Below the pieces are notes generated by a model. It made no database searches, had not been told where the DNA came from, and was given only the letters and a program-made list of their open reading frames with translations. A stretch of 64,000 bases of DNA from Phycisphaerae bacterium (GTDB taxonomy: Bacteria > Planctomycetota > Phycisphaerae > Sedimentisphaerales > SM23-30): contig JAEIOG010000003.1 in the NCBI GenBank assembly GCA_016342495.1, positions 26,800 to 90,799 on the forward strand. Direction: 5' to 3'. Shown piece after piece: positions 6,561 through 39,062 of this stretch. The position numbers and the translations under genes are program-made. How positions within the stretch are numbered: the first letter of the stretch is position 1; the number at the start of each line of letters is the position of its first letter.

Positions 6561-6985
6561 AAATATTTATATGCTTAGACTGTAACTTTGGCACAAATAT
6601 GCCATAAAGACTTATTATAGAGGCATTTAAACGCTAAACCTCCAAAACAATCGGTATTATCTACTATTTACGCGACAATTTCAAAGAAAATATACCTCCT
6701 AATAAATAATGCCCTCAACAAAAGCTACGACAAACTAAATCGCATAAGAATTACCTGCTCAAGTTCACCTATAAACTACCTCTTCGGCCAGGTGCTAAGC
6801 CTGCGGCCCCCTCGCTCAAGTCCACTTAGAAACCACCGCTTCCGCTGGGCGATGCCCCCGGCTGCACCATATCATGCGGGGTTTAGATGTTTATGAATGA
6901 GTTATCATGCCGGAATGAATTTATTGACACTTGTTCCGCCCGTTCGACATCCAGCTCGCCCGCCGGACATCCAGCCCGAAGTGAA

Positions 6986-7216
6986 TTTACAATGGTCTAT
7001 TGTAAGTTTACAATGCTCTGATGTGAATTTACATTGGTCTAGATAAAGTTTACATTGGTCTATTGTAAATTTACATTGGTTTAGATAAAGTTTACATCAG
7101 AGCAGATAAAGTTTACAATGGAGCAAATCAAATTTACATCAGAGTAATGTAAGCTTACAATGGACCAATGTAAATTTACATCAGAGCAATGTAAATTCAC
7201 ATTTGGCCTCTGCAGA
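6986..7216. repeat. Array of 11 contiguous 21-bp inverted-repeat units, consensus TTTACA-N9-TGTAAA
   Basis: Units start every 21 bp at 6986, 7007, 7028, 7049, 7070, 7091, 7112, 7133, 7154, 7175 and 7196; each starts with (T/C)T(T/C)ACA; adjoining units create TGTAAATTTACA palindromes; a decayed twelfth unit may follow. Confidence 0.9.
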
Positions 7217-8178: not shown

Positions 8179-11100
8179 TTACTCCTGCCAATGCAATATC
8201 GGATAGCCGCCAGCGGGGGGCATTTGCCAGATATCTTCGCTGCCATTGGCGGTTTCACCGAGGAAATCCCAGCCGGCGTTGAGGTAGGTTTCTATATTCT
8301 GCATCGCTGCGGTGTCTAAGCCGGTGCCGCCATCGCTGGTGGATTGACCGGAAGTTTCGGTGTCCCAGAAGCATGCTGTAATTGTTATACTGTCATTATT
8401 ATCGCCGCATAAGCCGCCCAGATAATCATTAGCATTAACTGCACCGCTGGCATAGCAATTGATTAGACTGCCATTGCTGAGATATCCGCATAAGCCGCCA
8501 ACAAAATAATCACCACTGACTGTGCCAATTGCATAACTATTTGACATGCTGCTAGTGGCAAAATTACCACATAAACCGCCAAGATAATAATAGCCATTTA
8601 CGTTACAGCTGGCATAACACGCGGTGATCCCTGCATCTGAAATGCCTCCGCATAAACCACCAAGATATTTATAACCACTGATCGCTCCGCTGGTATAACA
8701 ATTAGTTACACTGCCATTGCTGAGCTTTCCGCATAAGCCGCCAAGATACCGTGAGCCAGATCCGCCAGTGATATTGGCTATTATACCCAGATTTTCAATT
8801 TTGGCGGTTGGCCCTGATATGCTGCCAAACAAACCCAGATAATCATTGCCTGCTCCAGCGGTGTCAATTGTCAGATTGCTGATAATATGGCCATCGCCAT
8901 TGAAAACGCCGCTAAAGGATATGCCAGCAAATGTGTCTGTTGAATTATCTGTGTCTCTGGCGATGATTGCATTGTCAAAAGTATAGCCGGCCAGATCAAT
9001 ATCAGCTGTAAGGATGAAATGCTTATCCAGCAGCGTGACATCGGTGCCGATAGAGATCAGTTGCCCGGCGGTGCTAACTTGATAAGGATCAGCTGTGGTG
9101 CCCAGACCAGCAAATGGCTTTGTAACTTTTTTATTCATCCAGCATTCCAGTAATTGCTGGAGGTCAGCAATGTTAATCTGGCCATCAGTAATTAAATCTA
9201 TTTCTTTGCCTGGATGATTTGGGTCGCTACAATCTGTTAACCAGTATTCACTCAGTAAGGCAAATTCTTCCAGATTCACACTATTAATAACATTTAGAAT
9301 AATTGCTACTGTTTTGTCTTCCAGTATGCCATTAATTTCTTTGATTGCTAAAACAGTTGAATTGTATCCAAAATCTAGAAGGCTCACATCTATTATTGCT
9401 GTTACTGTTGTCTGGTCATTGGGATCACTGGAAACACCATTATCAGGTGATACCGAAATGATCCATGGGCAATCATAAACTATTTCCCAATCCAGAATAT
9501 TTCCACCTTCATTAAAAATTTTAAAACTAATGGTCTCTTGGACGCTGGCATCGGAAATATCTAAAACAAAATTTTGTTGTGACAGGCCGATGCCCGGTGT
9601 CTTACCTAAACTGATAATCATATCAACAGCATCGCCGCGTTTGGCATAAGTATTAGCTGATGGGCTTTGACTCATAATTGCCCCAGATGGAATTGTTGGG
9701 CTGTAGCCATAGGAAATCTCGCCTACAACTAGTTCGGCATCGGCGATAGCAGTTCTCGCCTGTACTTGTATCATTGATAAAATTTCAGGGACAATTGTTT
9801 CATAAATATAAAAACTGAAAGGAACTTCTACATCTGCTAAAATGCCATCGACATCGCTGATAATTAAAAAATCTTCATAACCGCCAGTTTCCAGCATGCT
9901 GATATCAAATGTTGCCGTGACAGTTGTCCGGTCCGCAGGATTAAGCGAGCTGCCTGATTCTGGTGTGATTATTACATCTAAGGAAGATGGACCTGATACC
10001 TGCCAGTTTAAGGCATTCTCCCCTGCATTAAATACTTCAAAACTGAGAATTAATGTTGCGGTGGTATCGGGCATATCAGGGTCATAGACCAGATTCCCAA
10101 AGCCAATTGCCGGTGACTGGCCTAAGCTCACAACTATATTTATTGCATCGCCAGTTTCAGCAAAACTACCAAATGGGTTTTGGCTTATAACCAGACCGCT
10201 GGCAATATCTTCACTGTAAGCATAAGAAATATCACCAACAATCAAACCAGAGTTGACAATGGTTGCTTCAGCCTGAGCCTGGGTCATGAAAATTACATTT
10301 GGAATCATTATAATATCAAGATTCTGCCAACGCAAAATTGGATAGTCGTCAATCGGCATGTACCAGATATCAGCAGTGCCGTTTATCGACAAACCTGCAA
10401 AGTCCCAGCCAGCATCAAGATAGGTGCTTATGTTTTGCATTTGAGCGGTTGTTAAACCAATGCCACCTGCACTGGTTGTTGTACCTGAAATTTCAGTATC
10501 CCAAAAGCAATTATTTATGATACCCGTTATATCAACAAAATGCTCAATGTACGGGCCTTGATACCACAGGTAGTCACGTTGTTCAAAAGTTCGAGTCAGA
10601 TTATCTCGACAAATTCCATTAGATACGATTCCAGAAGCATAGCAGTTTTCAATGATACCTATATCATTGATTTCACATATTCCGCAAGAAGCAATACAGT
10701 TCGTGTAGCAGTCATTTATAATTCCACCACTACCTACATCAATGCTGTAAGCATAAAAATACCCGATTTTCCGATACTCAGTAAGTTTTCTTTTATTGTA
10801 ACCACAAATGCCGCCGGAGCTATCGCCTGACATATTACCTGTTACAAAAGATTGATGAATTTCACCGCAATTATAACCACAAATGCCGCCGATATATTCT
10901 GAATTTTTTCCGGAAATAATATTAACATTTTCCAGACCGAGATTCTTTATAACAGCATCATAACCGGTTTTGCCAAATAAACCCAGATAGCTATTATTTG
11001 GATCTGCATTAGCTGTGCAAATAGTGAGATTTTGGATAATATAACCATTACCGTTGAAAGTTCCATCAAAATCATACCCCTGATGACCATCAGAGAAACT

Positions 11101-12894
11101 GTCAGTATCTGGAACAATGACAGCGGTGGCGAAAGTATAATCTGCTAAATCAATGTCGGTATTCAAAATAAAACATCTATTTAATACTCTTTGATTTGAG
11201 CCGATGGCTATCAACTGCTTAGCTGAAGAAATCTGATATGGATTAACTGAAGAACCATCACCTCCATCAAACTTATGAAGGTAAACCGTGACAATTTGGT
11301 CATCAGCGATTCCATCAATATCACTGATTACTAAATCTGTCACGAAATCCCCAAATTCTGCTTGAGAGGAATCAATTGTTACATTAACAATACATATGTC
11401 ATTAGGATCAACATCGCTAACTGTCTCAGGAGAAATAGCAACTATCCAGGGGCACTCATAGGAAATCTGCCAATCGAGCAAATTTCCGCCAGAATTATAA
11501 ACTTCAAAGCTAAATGTTTGAAGTTCGGCATCGTTTGTAGATAAAAATTCAATTTCTTCCTGAGAAATACCAATTGATGGGGCTTGCCCTAAGCTGATAA
11601 CCAGATCGATAGCTATTCCAGTCGAATCCACAGGCCCATAAATACTTTGTTGGATTACAAATCCCGAATTAATTGTAGAATTATATTTAAAAGTAATATC
11701 ACCAATAGTAAAACCAGCATTGATTAAAGTAGTTTGGGCATCGGTTTTTTCCATTGCTACAACAACTGGCGGGTAAAAAGCATCGAAGTCCTGCCATGCA
11801 AGTGCAGGGTATCCATCCATTATCCATATATCTTCTGATCCATTGGTAGTTTCATTAACAAAATCCCAATTTACATCCAGAAAAGTATTGATGTCTTGCA
11901 TTTGGACTGTACTACGCCCTAACCAGTCCCCCAAACTTCCATCTAATCGAGCTGTATCCATATCCCAAAAACCGTTAATAGATTGACTACTATATGATTC
12001 CCCAAAAACACCACCTATTTCAATTGAATCCCTACCTGCCTGAACATAACCGGCCGAATAATAATTAGCAATAGTACCACGATAGAAATAACCACAAAAA
12101 CCACCAATTTCACTAGAATCAATGCCCGCAATGACAGTTGCTTGCGAATAGCAATTATCTATAGTGCATAATCTAGAATCTCCACAAAATCCGCCAATTC
12201 CACTTGAACCATCATTGCCAATCACTGTTCCTTTTGAATAGCAACAATCTACATTAGTATACTGCTTATAACCAAACAGGCAGCCAATGTACTGATTACC
12301 AATGACATTACAGCTTGCATAGCACTTGCTTATATTGTTTTCTCTACTACTTCCACATAGCCCTCCTACACTCAGCCTTCCTTTTACATTACCAATTACA
12401 AAACAATTATATGCAGCAGTATATTTTATATATCCACATAAACCACCAACATAATAAGAATCATCTCCTCCCACAATATTTACACTTTTTAAGCCAAGAT
12501 TTTTGATTTCTGAACCCTCGCCTTCACAATGACCAAATAAACCCAGATAGTCATTATTTGTCTGCGAGGCATCAATAATTAAATTTGAAATAGAATGGCC
12601 ATTACCATTAAATATACCGCTAAAACTTGTTCCTTGGAAACCATAATCTGTCGAGGGATCCGGGGCAATAACCGCCTTATCAAAAATATAACCCAAAAAA
12701 TCAATATCAGCAGTCAGAATGAAATGCTTATCATAATCTGCTATAGTCTGGCCCAGATTTATCAGGTCGGCGGCGGTTGCTATCTGGTAGGGATCCGCTT
12801 CGCTGCCGTTACCGCCATCAAAAGCGGTGGCTGTAGCGGAAAAAACGACTAGCAATGTTGAAATAGCTAAACCCAGCGACAATATTCTTCTCAT
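8179..12894 (-). CDS. Giant secreted GLUG-repeat protein with PASTA-like, BACON/Ig-like and internal dockerin-like modules (paralog 1)
   Basis: Signal peptide MRRILSLGLAISTLLVVFSATATA (likely start 12894; ORF extends to 12933); many GLUG units (YLGGLCG...NCYASG); PASTA-like segments (MTQAQAEATIVNSGLIVGDISYAYSEDIASGLVISQNPFG); dockerin-like SVNLEEFALLSEYWLTDCSDPN...DGQINIADLQQLLECWM. Confidence 0.85.
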   Translation of the reverse strand: MRRILSLGLAISTLLVVFSATATAFDGGNGSEADPYQIATAADLINLGQTIADYDKHFILTADIDFLGYIFDKAVIAPDPSTDYGFQGTSFSGIFNGNGHSISNLIIDASQTNNDYLGLFGHCEGEGSEIKNLGLKSVNIVGGDDSYYVGGLCGYIKYTAAYNCFVIGNVKGRLSVGGLCGSSRENNISKCYASCNVIGNQYIGCLFGYKQYTNVDCCYSKGTVIGNDGSSGIGGFCGDSRLCTIDNCYSQATVIAGIDSSEIGGFCGYFYRGTIANYYSAGYVQAGRDSIEIGGVFGESYSSQSINGFWDMDTARLDGSLGDWLGRSTVQMQDINTFLDVNWDFVNETTNGSEDIWIMDGYPALAWQDFDAFYPPVVVAMEKTDAQTTLINAGFTIGDITFKYNSTINSGFVIQQSIYGPVDSTGIAIDLVISLGQAPSIGISQEEIEFLSTNDAELQTFSFEVYNSGGNLLDWQISYECPWIVAISPETVSDVDPNDICIVNVTIDSSQAEFGDFVTDLVISDIDGIADDQIVTVYLHKFDGGDGSSVNPYQISSAKQLIAIGSNQRVLNRCFILNTDIDLADYTFATAVIVPDTDSFSDGHQGYDFDGTFNGNGYIIQNLTICTANADPNNSYLGLFGKTGYDAVIKNLGLENVNIISGKNSEYIGGICGYNCGEIHQSFVTGNMSGDSSGGICGYNKRKLTEYRKIGYFYAYSIDVGSGGIINDCYTNCIASCGICEINDIGIIENCYASGIVSNGICRDNLTRTFEQRDYLWYQGPYIEHFVDITGIINNCFWDTEISGTTTSAGGIGLTTAQMQNISTYLDAGWDFAGLSINGTADIWYMPIDDYPILRWQNLDIIMIPNVIFMTQAQAEATIVNSGLIVGDISYAYSEDIASGLVISQNPFGSFAETGDAINIVVSLGQSPAIGFGNLVYDPDMPDTTATLILSFEVFNAGENALNWQVSGPSSLDVIITPESGSSLNPADRTTVTATFDISMLETGGYEDFLIISDVDGILADVEVPFSFYIYETIVPEILSMIQVQARTAIADAELVVGEISYGYSPTIPSGAIMSQSPSANTYAKRGDAVDMIISLGKTPGIGLSQQNFVLDISDASVQETISFKIFNEGGNILDWEIVYDCPWIISVSPDNGVSSDPNDQTTVTAIIDVSLLDFGYNSTVLAIKEINGILEDKTVAIILNVINSVNLEEFALLSEYWLTDCSDPNHPGKEIDLITDGQINIADLQQLLECWMNKKVTKPFAGLGTTADPYQVSTAGQLISIGTDVTLLDKHFILTADIDLAGYTFDNAIIARDTDNSTDTFAGISFSGVFNGDGHIISNLTIDTAGAGNDYLGLFGSISGPTAKIENLGIIANITGGSGSRYLGGLCGKLSNGSVTNCYTSGAISGYKYLGGLCGGISDAGITACYASCNVNGYYYLGGLCGNFATSSMSNSYAIGTVSGDYFVGGLCGYLSNGSLINCYASGAVNANDYLGGLCGDNNDSITITACFWDTETSGQSTSDGGTGLDTAAMQNIETYLNAGWDFLGETANGSEDIWQMPPAGGYPILHWQE

Positions 12895-13026
12895 AACAAT
12901 TCTCCTGTTAAATCTGGCCCCCAAACTTACCATATAAGTACTGTACCCTTTTAGCTACCGTTTTTCAAGGAAAAAGTAAGTTTATTAAGTCTTTTTTGCT
13001 CATAAGGATATTATTGCCAATTAAAG

Positions 13027-35042: not shown

Positions 35043-35504
35043 ATCTAACTCCTAAGTCAATAATATAACTTTATTTATTGCTACAAAAGTGGAAAACCAC
35101 ATGTACCTTGCAATAAATAATTAAGTACAGTTTAAATTTTTAATCCATCAATATCTAAGAGCCTTATAAATAGCTCCAAGATAGTCAAAGACTAAGTAGT
35201 ATAATGATTTCTAGGAAGAATTCAAGAGTTTTTTTAAAAAAAATCACAGGGCACAATATCACATAAAACATTATATAAAAAGGACTTATCGTCGAAGACG
35301 GGATTTGATGTGGTAACTTTAAAAAGTATTTTAGTGCATTGAGCAGTTATAAATAATAGAAAAATCAACGTGATAGCCACTTTTGACCGACCTATAATGA
35401 ATACATACTAAATTTGATTTATATGAACATTATGTGATAATTTTATTGCTTTTACAGCAATATGGAGTGACGCCAATGCGTTATTAATAACAGACAGGCA
35501 AAAA

Positions 35505-36089
35505 ATGGAAAAAGACATCTTAGCAGACATGATATCAAAATGCCAGAAAGGTGATAAAGACGCTTTTAACTGGTTACTAAATGAGTATGGACCAAGGCTT
35601 TATCGCTATTTTCTACGAACCAGTGGAAACGATGAACGTGCTGGTGACATGCTGCAGGAAATGTTCGTAAAGCTCTTACAAAAAATAAAGAAGTATCAGC
35701 ATCAGGGCCAGTTTGAGCACTGGCTTTTCAGGGTCGCAGCAAACTTGGCTCGTGACAATGCCCGAAAGCAAAAAAATGTTTATTCGCTGCAAAATGATGA
35801 CCCTGATAAGCCTGGCCCGGGTGATTTACTGGTTGGCCGTGGTCCTGGGCCTTTTGAGAATGTTGAACACTCTGAACAGGTAGAAATATTGCAGCAGGCA
35901 ATTGATATGCTTACCGCCGACCAAAAAGAGATAATACTCCTTAGACATTATAGCCAAATGAGCTTTCAGGAAATAGCACAGGAACTTAAAATACCGGTTG
36001 GCACTGCACTGGCAAGAGCACACCGGGGCCTGAAAAGACTTAAAGAGATACTCGACCCTAAAATTAATGCGATTACAAAAAATCGATAA
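35505..36089 (+). CDS. ECF-type RNA polymerase sigma factor
   Basis: DAFNWLLNEYGPRLYRYFLRTSGNDERAGDMLQEMFVKLLQKIKKY (region 2) and DMLTADQKEIILLRHYSQMSFQEIAQELKIPVGTALARAHRGLKRL (region 4). Confidence 0.95.
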   Translation: MEKDILADMISKCQKGDKDAFNWLLNEYGPRLYRYFLRTSGNDERAGDMLQEMFVKLLQKIKKYQHQGQFEHWLFRVAANLARDNARKQKNVYSLQNDDPDKPGPGDLLVGRGPGPFENVEHSEQVEILQQAIDMLTADQKEIILLRHYSQMSFQEIAQELKIPVGTALARAHRGLKRLKEILDPKINAITKNR

Positions 36090-36104
36090 GAAACGAGAAA
36101 TGTC

Positions 36105-36578
36105 ATGAAAACAAATAATGAAAACCTTAATGATCAACAAATAGAGGAGCTAAAAAAACTGGAAAAGTTACTCTCCAGCTTTCCTGAGCCCCATGTTCCC
36201 AATCATATTATGCAAACAGTGCAAGACAGCATCAAAAATGAGCTGGAAGGCCTACAGGGCAGAATAAGGTTGCGACTGGTCTCAATCCTTGCTGCCGCAG
36301 CTGTATTTGCCATTGTATTTGGTGCTATGTTCATAAATAATAATGATACAAAAACTGAGATTAAAGATAATCCTCAGCAGGTAAGCATATTGGGAAATGA
36401 CCAGGTTTTATATAAGGTGGGAATTTGGCAGGAATCAGCCGGTGAGAAGATAGATAATATAGCAATGAACGATATATTGACACTGTGGACTGGTAATAAA
36501 ATTAATAGCAACAACGGAAACATTGAAGAGCCATTAGAGCCAGTCTCGCAAAAGAGCCAGGCATCCATGCAGTGCTAA
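36105..36578 (+). CDS. Putative membrane anti-sigma factor
   Basis: Immediately downstream of the sigma gene; cytoplasmic acidic N-terminus, a single TM (LVSILAAAAVFAIVFGAMFI), short extracytoplasmic tail. Confidence 0.6.
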   Translation: MKTNNENLNDQQIEELKKLEKLLSSFPEPHVPNHIMQTVQDSIKNELEGLQGRIRLRLVSILAAAAVFAIVFGAMFINNNDTKTEIKDNPQQVSILGNDQVLYKVGIWQESAGEKIDNIAMNDILTLWTGNKINSNNGNIEEPLEPVSQKSQASMQC

Positions 36579-36629
36579 CAACGCCATTTAAAATTTCTAA
36601 GCAAAAAGTTCTGAGAAAGGAGCTAAATT

Positions 36630-37988
36630 ATGAAAACTATGTTAAAAACAGCTTTGATGACCATGATAGTAACAGCCATCAGTCAAACAGGTGTATTTGC
36701 CCAGCAAGGACCTGATCCTATGGGAAATGGGCCTGCTTTTGAACGAGGCCAGGGCATGGGACGTGGTCCTATGATGCAACGCGGGCAACAAGGACCAGGA
36801 CAACGTCAGGGTATGCGAGGCCAAGGTCGTAATCAGGGCCAAAAACAAGGAATGCAACGTGGCATGGGCATGGGACGCGGTCCTATGATGACCCAACGCG
36901 GACAGCAAGGACCAGGACAACGTCAGGGTATGCTAGGTCAAGGTCGCAATCAAGGCCAAAAACAAGAAATGCAACGTGGTATGGGCATGGGACGCGGTCC
37001 TATGATGACCCAACGCGGGCAACAAGGACCAGGACAACGTCAGGGTATGCGAGGCCAAGGTCGTAATCAGGGCCAGAAACAAGGAATGCAACGTGGTATG
37101 GGCATGGGACGTGGTCCTATGATGATGCAACGCGGGCAACAAGGACCAGGACAAGGCCAGGGTATGCGAGGTCAAGGCCGCAACCAGGGTCAGAAACAAG
37201 GAATGCAACGTGGCATGGGCATGGGACGTGGTCCTATGATGATGCAACGCGGGCAGCAAGGGCCCGGACAAGGTCAGGGTATGCGAGGTCAAGGTCGCAA
37301 TCAAGGCCAGAAACAAGGAATGCAACGTGGCATGGGTATGGGACGTGGTCCTATGATGATGCAACGCGGACAGCAAGGACCAGGACAAGGTCAGGGTATG
37401 CGAGGTCAAGGCCGCAACCAGGGTCAGAAACAAGGAATGCAACGTGGCATGGGCATGGCACGCGGTCCTATGATGATGCAGCGTGGACAGCAAGGACTCG
37501 GACAAGGCCAGAGTATGCGTGGTCAAGGTCGTAATCAGGGCCAGAAACAAGGAATGCAACGTGGCATGGGTATGGGACGTGGTCCTATGATGATGCAACG
37601 CGGACAGCAAGGACCAGGACAAGGTCAGGGTATGCGAGGTCAAGGCCGCAACCAGGGTCAGAAACAAGGAATGCAACGTGGCATGGGCATGGCACGCGGT
37701 CCTATGATGATGCAGCGTGGACAGCAAGGACTCGGACAAGGCCAGAGTATGCGTGGTCAAGGTCGTAATCAGGGCCAGAAACAAGGAATGCAACGTGGCA
37801 TGGGCATGGGACGCGGTCCTATGATGATGCAACGCGGACAGCAAGGACTCGGACAAGGTCAGGGTATGCGTGGCCAAGGTCGCAATCAAGGCCAGAAACA
37901 AGGAATGCAACGTGGTATGGGTATGGGACGTGGTCCTATGATGATGCAACGCGGACAGCAAGGACCAGGATTCGGAAGAAATCGTTAA
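36630..37988 (+). CDS. Secreted Gly/Gln/Met/Arg-rich tandem-repeat protein
   Basis: Signal peptide MKTMLKTALMTMIVTAISQTGVFAQ; repeats of GMGRGPMMMQRGQQGPGQGQGMRGQGRNQGQKQGMQRGM; RBS aaaggag. Confidence 0.85.
   Translation: MKTMLKTALMTMIVTAISQTGVFAQQGPDPMGNGPAFERGQGMGRGPMMQRGQQGPGQRQGMRGQGRNQGQKQGMQRGMGMGRGPMMTQRGQQGPGQRQGMLGQGRNQGQKQEMQRGMGMGRGPMMTQRGQQGPGQRQGMRGQGRNQGQKQGMQRGMGMGRGPMMMQRGQQGPGQGQGMRGQGRNQGQKQGMQRGMGMGRGPMMMQRGQQGPGQGQGMRGQGRNQGQKQGMQRGMGMGRGPMMMQRGQQGPGQGQGMRGQGRNQGQKQGMQRGMGMARGPMMMQRGQQGLGQGQSMRGQGRNQGQKQGMQRGMGMGRGPMMMQRGQQGPGQGQGMRGQGRNQGQKQGMQRGMGMARGPMMMQRGQQGLGQGQSMRGQGRNQGQKQGMQRGMGMGRGPMMMQRGQQGLGQGQGMRGQGRNQGQKQGMQRGMGMGRGPMMMQRGQQGPGFGRNR
36750..37973 (+). repeat. 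117-bp (39-aa) in-frame tandem repeat, about 11 copies
   Basis: GGTCCTATGATG landmark at 36765, 36879, 36996, 37113, 37230 ... 37932; spacing 114 bp once, otherwise 117 bp. Confidence 0.95.
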
Positions 37989-38037
37989 TTAAAATGTATG
38001 TTACATAAGTTTCACAAACACTTACAGGAGTAAAAAA

Positions 38038-38880
38038 ATGAAAAAAACACTATTAATCATGGCTATCCTAGCGTTCTGCTTCGCAGGAATTGACGTCGCA
38101 GATGCACAATATCAAAATGACCGGGGTGATTCATACCAGAATCAGCCACAATTTGGCGGTCAAGGCCAGGGCCAAGGTGGCCAAGGACGCGGCGGCTATG
38201 GTCGTGGCGGACAACAAGGCCAAGGTCAGCAAGGTGGTCAAGGCGGCATGATGGGTGGCCGTGGTGGACAGATGCAAGGCGGGCAAATGCAAGGTGGCAT
38301 GGGCATGGGTCGTGGCGGTTTTGGAAGAGTAAGCGACGAAGACCTACTAACATTCCTGCAGAAATACGAACCAGAAATGGCAAAAAATTTAGTTATGCTA
38401 AATCAAGAAAATCCAGATGCTTTCAAACAAAAAATGCAATCTCTACAAAGAGTCTATGGCAGAGTTATCATGCAAATGGAACGGGACCCAGAAGCTGGTA
38501 AGCTGGCATTGAAAAAAATCAGATTGACCCTCGAAATTAATGCCATAACCGAAGCCACAGATACTGTTAGCTCCGCAGATAAGGCAAAAATCGAGAAAAA
38601 TGTTGGCCAGATATTTGATATTGTTATTCAAGAAGAACAACAGCGGATTAAGAGCTGGCGTGAGATGGCATCCAACTTCGGTAATCGCGGCGGACAAGAC
38701 CGTGGCGGTAGGGGCCAAGGGCAAGCCCGTGGCGGCGACGCTGATGAGCGTACTAAGAGAATGGAAGAAAGTTTCAAAGACAGAGCTCAACAAATTGAAA
38801 AATGGAGAAAGAATAAAGAAATTATTGTCAAACAACGTGTAGAACAACTTGTCAATAAAGTCGAAGCTTTCCCATGGTAA
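38038..38880 (+). CDS. Secreted protein with Gly/Gln/Arg/Met-rich N-terminus and charged helical C-terminal domain
   Basis: Signal peptide MKKTLLIMAILAFCFAGIDVADA; GGQGQGQGGQGRGGYGRGGQQGQGQQGGQGGMMGGRGGQMQGGQMQGGMGMGRGG followed by a helical Lys/Glu-rich region. Confidence 0.85.
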   Translation: MKKTLLIMAILAFCFAGIDVADAQYQNDRGDSYQNQPQFGGQGQGQGGQGRGGYGRGGQQGQGQQGGQGGMMGGRGGQMQGGQMQGGMGMGRGGFGRVSDEDLLTFLQKYEPEMAKNLVMLNQENPDAFKQKMQSLQRVYGRVIMQMERDPEAGKLALKKIRLTLEINAITEATDTVSSADKAKIEKNVGQIFDIVIQEEQQRIKSWREMASNFGNRGGQDRGGRGQGQARGGDADERTKRMEESFKDRAQQIEKWRKNKEIIVKQRVEQLVNKVEAFPW

Positions 38881-39062
38881 ACACCAACTAAGCTTGAATA
38901 TCTGTAATAACTTAAAAAAAAGGCTCGGCAAACTGTCGGGTCTTTTTTATGCGCAAAAAAATGGCATAAAAACTATAGTTTTTTGTGCATTAAAAAGCTT
39001 TAAAAAGAATATTGGCAATTTAGTGGGTTTTATGGGTATAATAAGGTGAATTTATTAATTTT

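Follow-up and report, generated by a model that had tools for sequence, protein, structure and literature searches.

A candidate envelope-response ECF sigma factor operon of Planctomycetota encoding a conserved secreted domain and a lineage-specific repeat protein

Why would a gene for an exported, almost wholly repetitive protein lie in the operon of an ECF sigma factor, and which parts of such an arrangement recur in other genomes? These questions are raised by a locus in a Phycisphaerae bacterium of the order Sedimentisphaerales, which we analyzed within a stretch of 64,000 nucleotides of contig JAEIOG010000003.1 (hereafter the window). A first-pass annotation had described four co-oriented genes here, and our check of open reading frames across 35505-38880 recovered every one of them at the coordinates given. 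All on the + strand, they encode an ECF sigma factor of 194 aa (gene 1, 35505-36089), a putative membrane anti-sigma factor of 157 aa (gene 2, 36105-36578), a secreted Gly/Gln/Met/Arg repeat protein of 452 aa (gene 3, 36630-37988), and a secreted, helical-looking protein (gene 4, 38038-38880), with intergenic gaps of 15, 51, and 49 bp. A predicted 27-bp ECF promoter, GCAATA-N16-CGTTA, which conforms to a motif found throughout the order (discussed below), is located at 35457-35483 (+; G000:C90:62256-62282 in the coordinates of its own genome), 21 bp upstream of the sigma factor start codon. An intrinsic terminator (38916-38948, +), which was not picked up by a simple scan and was found by RNA folding (-17.3 kcal/mol, z -6.15), begins 35 bp downstream of gene 4 and marks the end of the operon. 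As the promoter motif precedes gene 1 and a strong terminator follows gene 4, co-transcription is likely, and with their short gaps the four genes are one unit.

The first gene belongs to the ECF sigma family. Its product contains the Pfam domains Sigma70_r2 (residues 24-90, 3e-14) and Sigma70_r4_2 (residues 127-179, 3.9e-14) with no sigma3 region between them, the arrangement that defines ECF factors, and it scores 105.7 bits against the NCBIfam model TIGR02937 (sigma70-ECF), for which the cut-off is 42.9. Gene 2 has the layout of a membrane anti-sigma factor (class I / ZAS), following the sigma gene directly and encoding a short cytoplasmic domain and one transmembrane segment, visible in the sequence as a single hydrophobic stretch at approximately residues 59-80. 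The window's gene 2 has no Pfam match, and hence no zf-HC2 or ZAS signature, and its match to the anti-sigma model NF052375 is weak (0.0044) and below the cut-off. The anti-sigma reading gains support because zf-HC2 anti-sigma proteins fill the same slot in several loci of other Planctomycetota classes. We infer from family and position that gene 2 encodes a putative anti-sigma factor that would inhibit the sigma factor. One anti-sigma-like protein in another locus (L149, 2985-3716) has a duplicated N-terminal domain.

To which of these genes does conservation extend? With gene 4 as the query, 65 of 148 relatives gave matches, every one of them in Sedimentisphaerales, and in a scan of genome contigs (four loci) its nearest named relatives were Sedimentisphaerales/Phycisphaerae MAGs. 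The order around these homologues is fixed, with the sigma factor followed by the single-transmembrane protein and then the helical secreted protein. According to profile models, 34 of the order's 37 loci carry the sigma gene upstream on the same strand; the three exceptions are two contig ends and one orphan copy of gene 4 (L064). A profile of the gene 4 domain (A4, built from 37 domains) detected relatives in 61 of 392 Planctomycetota genomes, and among 20 further loci sampled across the phylum from outside Sedimentisphaerales, the sigma gene was upstream in 19, with a contig end as the sole exception. Judged by gene order, genes 1, 2, and 4 are a conserved operon across Planctomycetota, and the conserved core includes gene 4 and not the repeat protein. 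The first-pass annotation had named synteny between the sigma factor and Met/Gly/Arg repeats in related genomes as a check on its proposal; this synteny held strongly for the sigma factor, anti-sigma factor, and helical protein, while the repeat protein proved to be lineage-specific. Also supported is that annotation's description of the locus as an ECF sigma factor with a putative anti-sigma factor, from which two unusual proteins are exported. A literature search, itself incomplete, found no description of this operon, although an earlier mention as an ECF group is possible. In three families (f2, f6, and f7), rhomboid protease genes (PF01694 with DUF6576) adjoin the sigma operon in convergent orientation (L046, 5539-6399; L049, 2772-3632; L059, 5352-6191; L068, 3401-4318; L048, 3184-4050). 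This is suggestive only; the arrangement could conceivably be tied to cleavage of the anti-sigma factor, or could reflect no more than local synteny.

The promoter motif recurs across the order. GCAATA-N15/16-CGTY is found upstream of 32 of the 36 sigma genes of the order, where shuffled sequences gave an expectation of 0.055, and the start codon mostly lies ~20-28 bp downstream of it; two of the four sigma genes that lack it carry it inside an over-long predicted ORF. Outside the order, the same motif is upstream of 6 of the 13 sigma genes examined. At L063 (G009:C58, 1-997), in another genome of the window's family, the sigma gene is absent, and the motif is immediately followed by the anti-sigma gene and a gene for a Met/Gly/Arg repeat protein. 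The pattern TGCAATAA-N(6-24)-CGTCTWA gave 68 matches in 146 genomes, with 40 at a spacing of 15 and 55 at spacings of 14-16, compared with ~0.8 at each other spacing. By our tally, ~21 of these 55 are sigma operons, and the remainder point to other genes. Signal-peptide-like N-termini were predicted, with a crude, home-made predictor, for 10 of 17 strong non-sigma targets versus 21 of 221 background proteins (p 3.5e-6). Among the genes behind the motif are those for HEAT, transglutaminase, sulfatase, PSD1, outer-membrane efflux, LTXXQ-like, and Gly/Arg-rich proteins, and Gly/Arg-rich segments taken alone showed no significant enrichment in the regulon (p 0.06-0.13). Also linked to the motif are an arylsulfotransferase and FMN-binding/TPR proteins with MMGG/RGG- or RG-rich stretches (L132, 912-2735, - strand; L130, 348-1514). 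Together, the peak at N15 and the enrichment of signal peptides support the envelope-directed side of the first-pass proposal and point to a predicted envelope regulon across the order, enriched for secreted proteins. A stricter pattern has no match in the window, because the promoter there reads CGTTATT. With GCAATA..CGTTA/W, the window's own genome has 11 matches versus 4 in a reversed control, clear only at this operon, and a scan of the family gave a high background with no evident spacing peak; the motif is too short for a regulon to be discerned in this genome and family.

The near-invariant partner of the sigma and anti-sigma genes, gene 4, encodes a signal peptide, a Gly/Gln/Arg-rich N-terminus (approximately residues 24-95), and a charged domain (approximately residues 96-280) that we judge from its sequence to be all-helical, and it ends in AFPW. 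The domain has no significant relative in Pfam, NCBIfam, or the PDB, with a PDB profile search returning chance matches only. Across the 37 aligned domains, L18 and W191 are the only invariant residues, the Trp being that of the C-terminal motif, and no His, Cys, or Met is conserved. A Trp occurs within the last three residues of 37 of 39 proteins of Sedimentisphaerales, as FPW in the window's family and xWD elsewhere in the order, and of 8 of 20 outside it; in these, gene 4 has the features by which MucE-like PDZ-ligand proteins are recognized, namely export and an aromatic C-terminal tail. We also compared gene 4 with other known partners of such systems. There was no Pfam or NCBIfam match to relate it to RseB/MucB, with which it was compared by sequence only, no PF07813 match to place it with Spy/CpxP (LTXXQ), and neither a Metal_resist match nor conserved His/Cys/Met ligands as in a CnrX-type metal sensor. 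The Trp tails SSWFPW and RFEWDW also end low-complexity exported proteins that are unrelated to the helical domain (L044, 5416-6297; L096, 293-1000).

Gene 4 might instead be purely an effector, for instance a structural protein of the envelope or a periplasmic chaperone resembling Spy/CpxP, leaving the anti-sigma factor alone to sense the signal, and we give this explanation a chance not far short of even. A secreted, charged, helical-looking product would fit it, and the tandem copies of gene 4 in one genome (G002; L041 and L148), together with the orphan copy, would equally suit an effector role. The promoter motif also precedes weakly Spy-like proteins of the LTXXQ/Metal_resist type (L139 and L140). 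However, the conserved domain of gene 4 itself matches neither LTXXQ nor Metal_resist, and its near-obligate linkage to the anti-sigma gene throughout the phylum is more than an effector needs. This linkage suggests that gene 4 is part of the circuit.

By analogy, the operon appears to work like the RpoE/RseA or AlgU/MucA systems, and is a known kind of ECF system in variant form. It shares with RpoE-RseA-RseB and AlgU-MucA-MucB an ECF sigma factor, a single-pass anti-sigma factor, an additional extracytoplasmic protein in the operon, and autoregulation, to which only the motif speaks here. Unlike RseB/MucB, the third protein is helical-looking, has a C-terminal Trp motif, and lacks a Pfam match, and the operon differs from the RpoE and AlgU systems in its promoter (GCAATA/CGTY) and in the addition of secreted Gly/Arg-rich repeat proteins. 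The small exported helical proteins Spy, CpxP, and ZraP (LTXXQ) similarly belong to an envelope-stress regulon, but the conserved domain matches neither LTXXQ nor Metal_resist, whereas some predicted regulon members do so weakly. The C-terminal tail of MucE, which ends in WVF, has been reported to activate AlgW, and in OMP/DegS tail signaling DegS binds YxF (PMC8545111). Gene 4 resembles these in being an exported protein with an aromatic C-terminal tail, but its tail is hydrophobic-x-Trp, often with one or two further residues, and no PDZ protease is linked to it here.

We next consider the repeat protein itself. Gene 3 has a visible ribosome-binding site and signal peptide, and contains 10.4 copies of a 117-bp unit (39 aa) with a 90% match; a 342-aa antisense ORF over the array (36933-37961, -) is a by-product of the repeat composition. 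Counted from residue 26, the mature product is 427 residues long and includes 72 Met (17%), 67 Lys or Arg, and 3 acidic residues, with no His or Cys; for the repeats themselves, the earlier description of a sequence without Cys, His, or acidic residues apart from one Glu is correct. One explanation is that the protein represents a recent, functionless expansion of the array that lies in the operon by chance, as tandem arrays expand readily and no sequence homologue of gene 3 was found in 12 other genomes of the family. We consider this highly unlikely. Nine repeat units differ mainly at synonymous sites (pS 0.338, pN 0.029, pN/pS 0.09), so selection acts on the protein sequence, which is no mere accident of the DNA repeat, and the signal peptide is intact. 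Moreover, six other loci (L040, L044, L050, L059, L062, and L063) encode proteins of similar make-up with unrelated repeats, either in this slot or next to the operon, and those that occupy the slot, in L040, L044, L062, and L063, were built independently. From these comparisons, gene 3 is under purifying selection but lineage-specific, its slot in relatives being occupied by Gly/Arg-rich repeat proteins that are unrelated to it. A Met/Gly/Arg repeat protein is also encoded away from the sigma operon in another genome (G044; L151, 1420-2244). Two further repetitive features occur in the window: an array of 21/42-bp units with TTTACATTGGTCTA- and TTTACATCAGAGCA-like boxes (6984-7203), within a stretch between 6560 and 8179 that has no ORF of at least 100 aa, and a gene for a large exported protein with GLUG-like GGLCG repeats (8179-12933, -).

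The first-pass annotation had raised Cu(I)/Ag(I) binding by the Met-rich repeats as a possibility, and the 17% Met of the mature protein would be in keeping with a metal-responsive system in which the helical protein senses metal. CnrYXH of Cupriavidus metallidurans likewise joins an ECF sigma factor, a single-transmembrane anti-sigma factor, and a helical periplasmic protein of the CnrX type. But Gly and Arg are the residues that are high in all of these low-complexity proteins, while Met ranges from ~2.5 to 17% (17% in the window versus 2.5-4% in L050, L059, and L062), the same-slot proteins have no conserved Met motifs, and the one in L044 contains Cys and His. In contrast to CnrYXH, the trio described here has no conserved metal ligands and no Metal_resist match in its helical domain, is spread across Planctomycetota, and has no metal exporter or chaperone gene in the operon. 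The lack of conserved Met content and of conserved His/Cys weakens the metal idea, and we regard such a system as very improbable. What these proteins have in common is that each is exported as a flexible, cationic chain, a property better suited to binding anionic polymers of the envelope or matrix than to binding metal. A cationic, disordered envelope or matrix effector is therefore the better fit for gene 3 by composition, and putative polyanion binding is plausible.

We believe that the locus is probably an autoregulated ECF sigma/anti-sigma operon that responds to the cell envelope. In the resting state, the single-transmembrane anti-sigma factor would hold the sigma factor, as its family and position imply, and an envelope signal would free it. 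The freed sigma factor would then transcribe its own operon from GCAATA-N15/16-CGTY, as well as the gene set that in relatives is enriched for exported proteins. The gene 4 product would be both a product of the operon and most likely an extracytoplasmic partner that modulates the anti-sigma factor or its protease, while the repeat protein, fast-evolving, strongly cationic, and probably disordered, would act as an effector, coating or cross-linking anionic polymers of the envelope or matrix. It is tempting to extend this, by analogy with MucE, to a phylum-wide envelope-stress circuit in which the helical protein signals through its C-terminal Trp tail and the output includes rapidly evolving, cationic low-complexity proteins that build or repair the surface, but we consider this broader scheme speculative and rather unlikely.

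Envelope stress control has been little charted in Planctomycetota, whose cell surface is unusual, and this analysis provides an operon design and a promoter motif, together with candidate regulon genes that are testable in cultured members. It also points to a conserved family of secreted domains for which there is no Pfam or NCBIfam model, and to a fixed genomic slot in which Gly/Arg-rich low-complexity proteins keep arising, where composition is seemingly kept and sequence is not.
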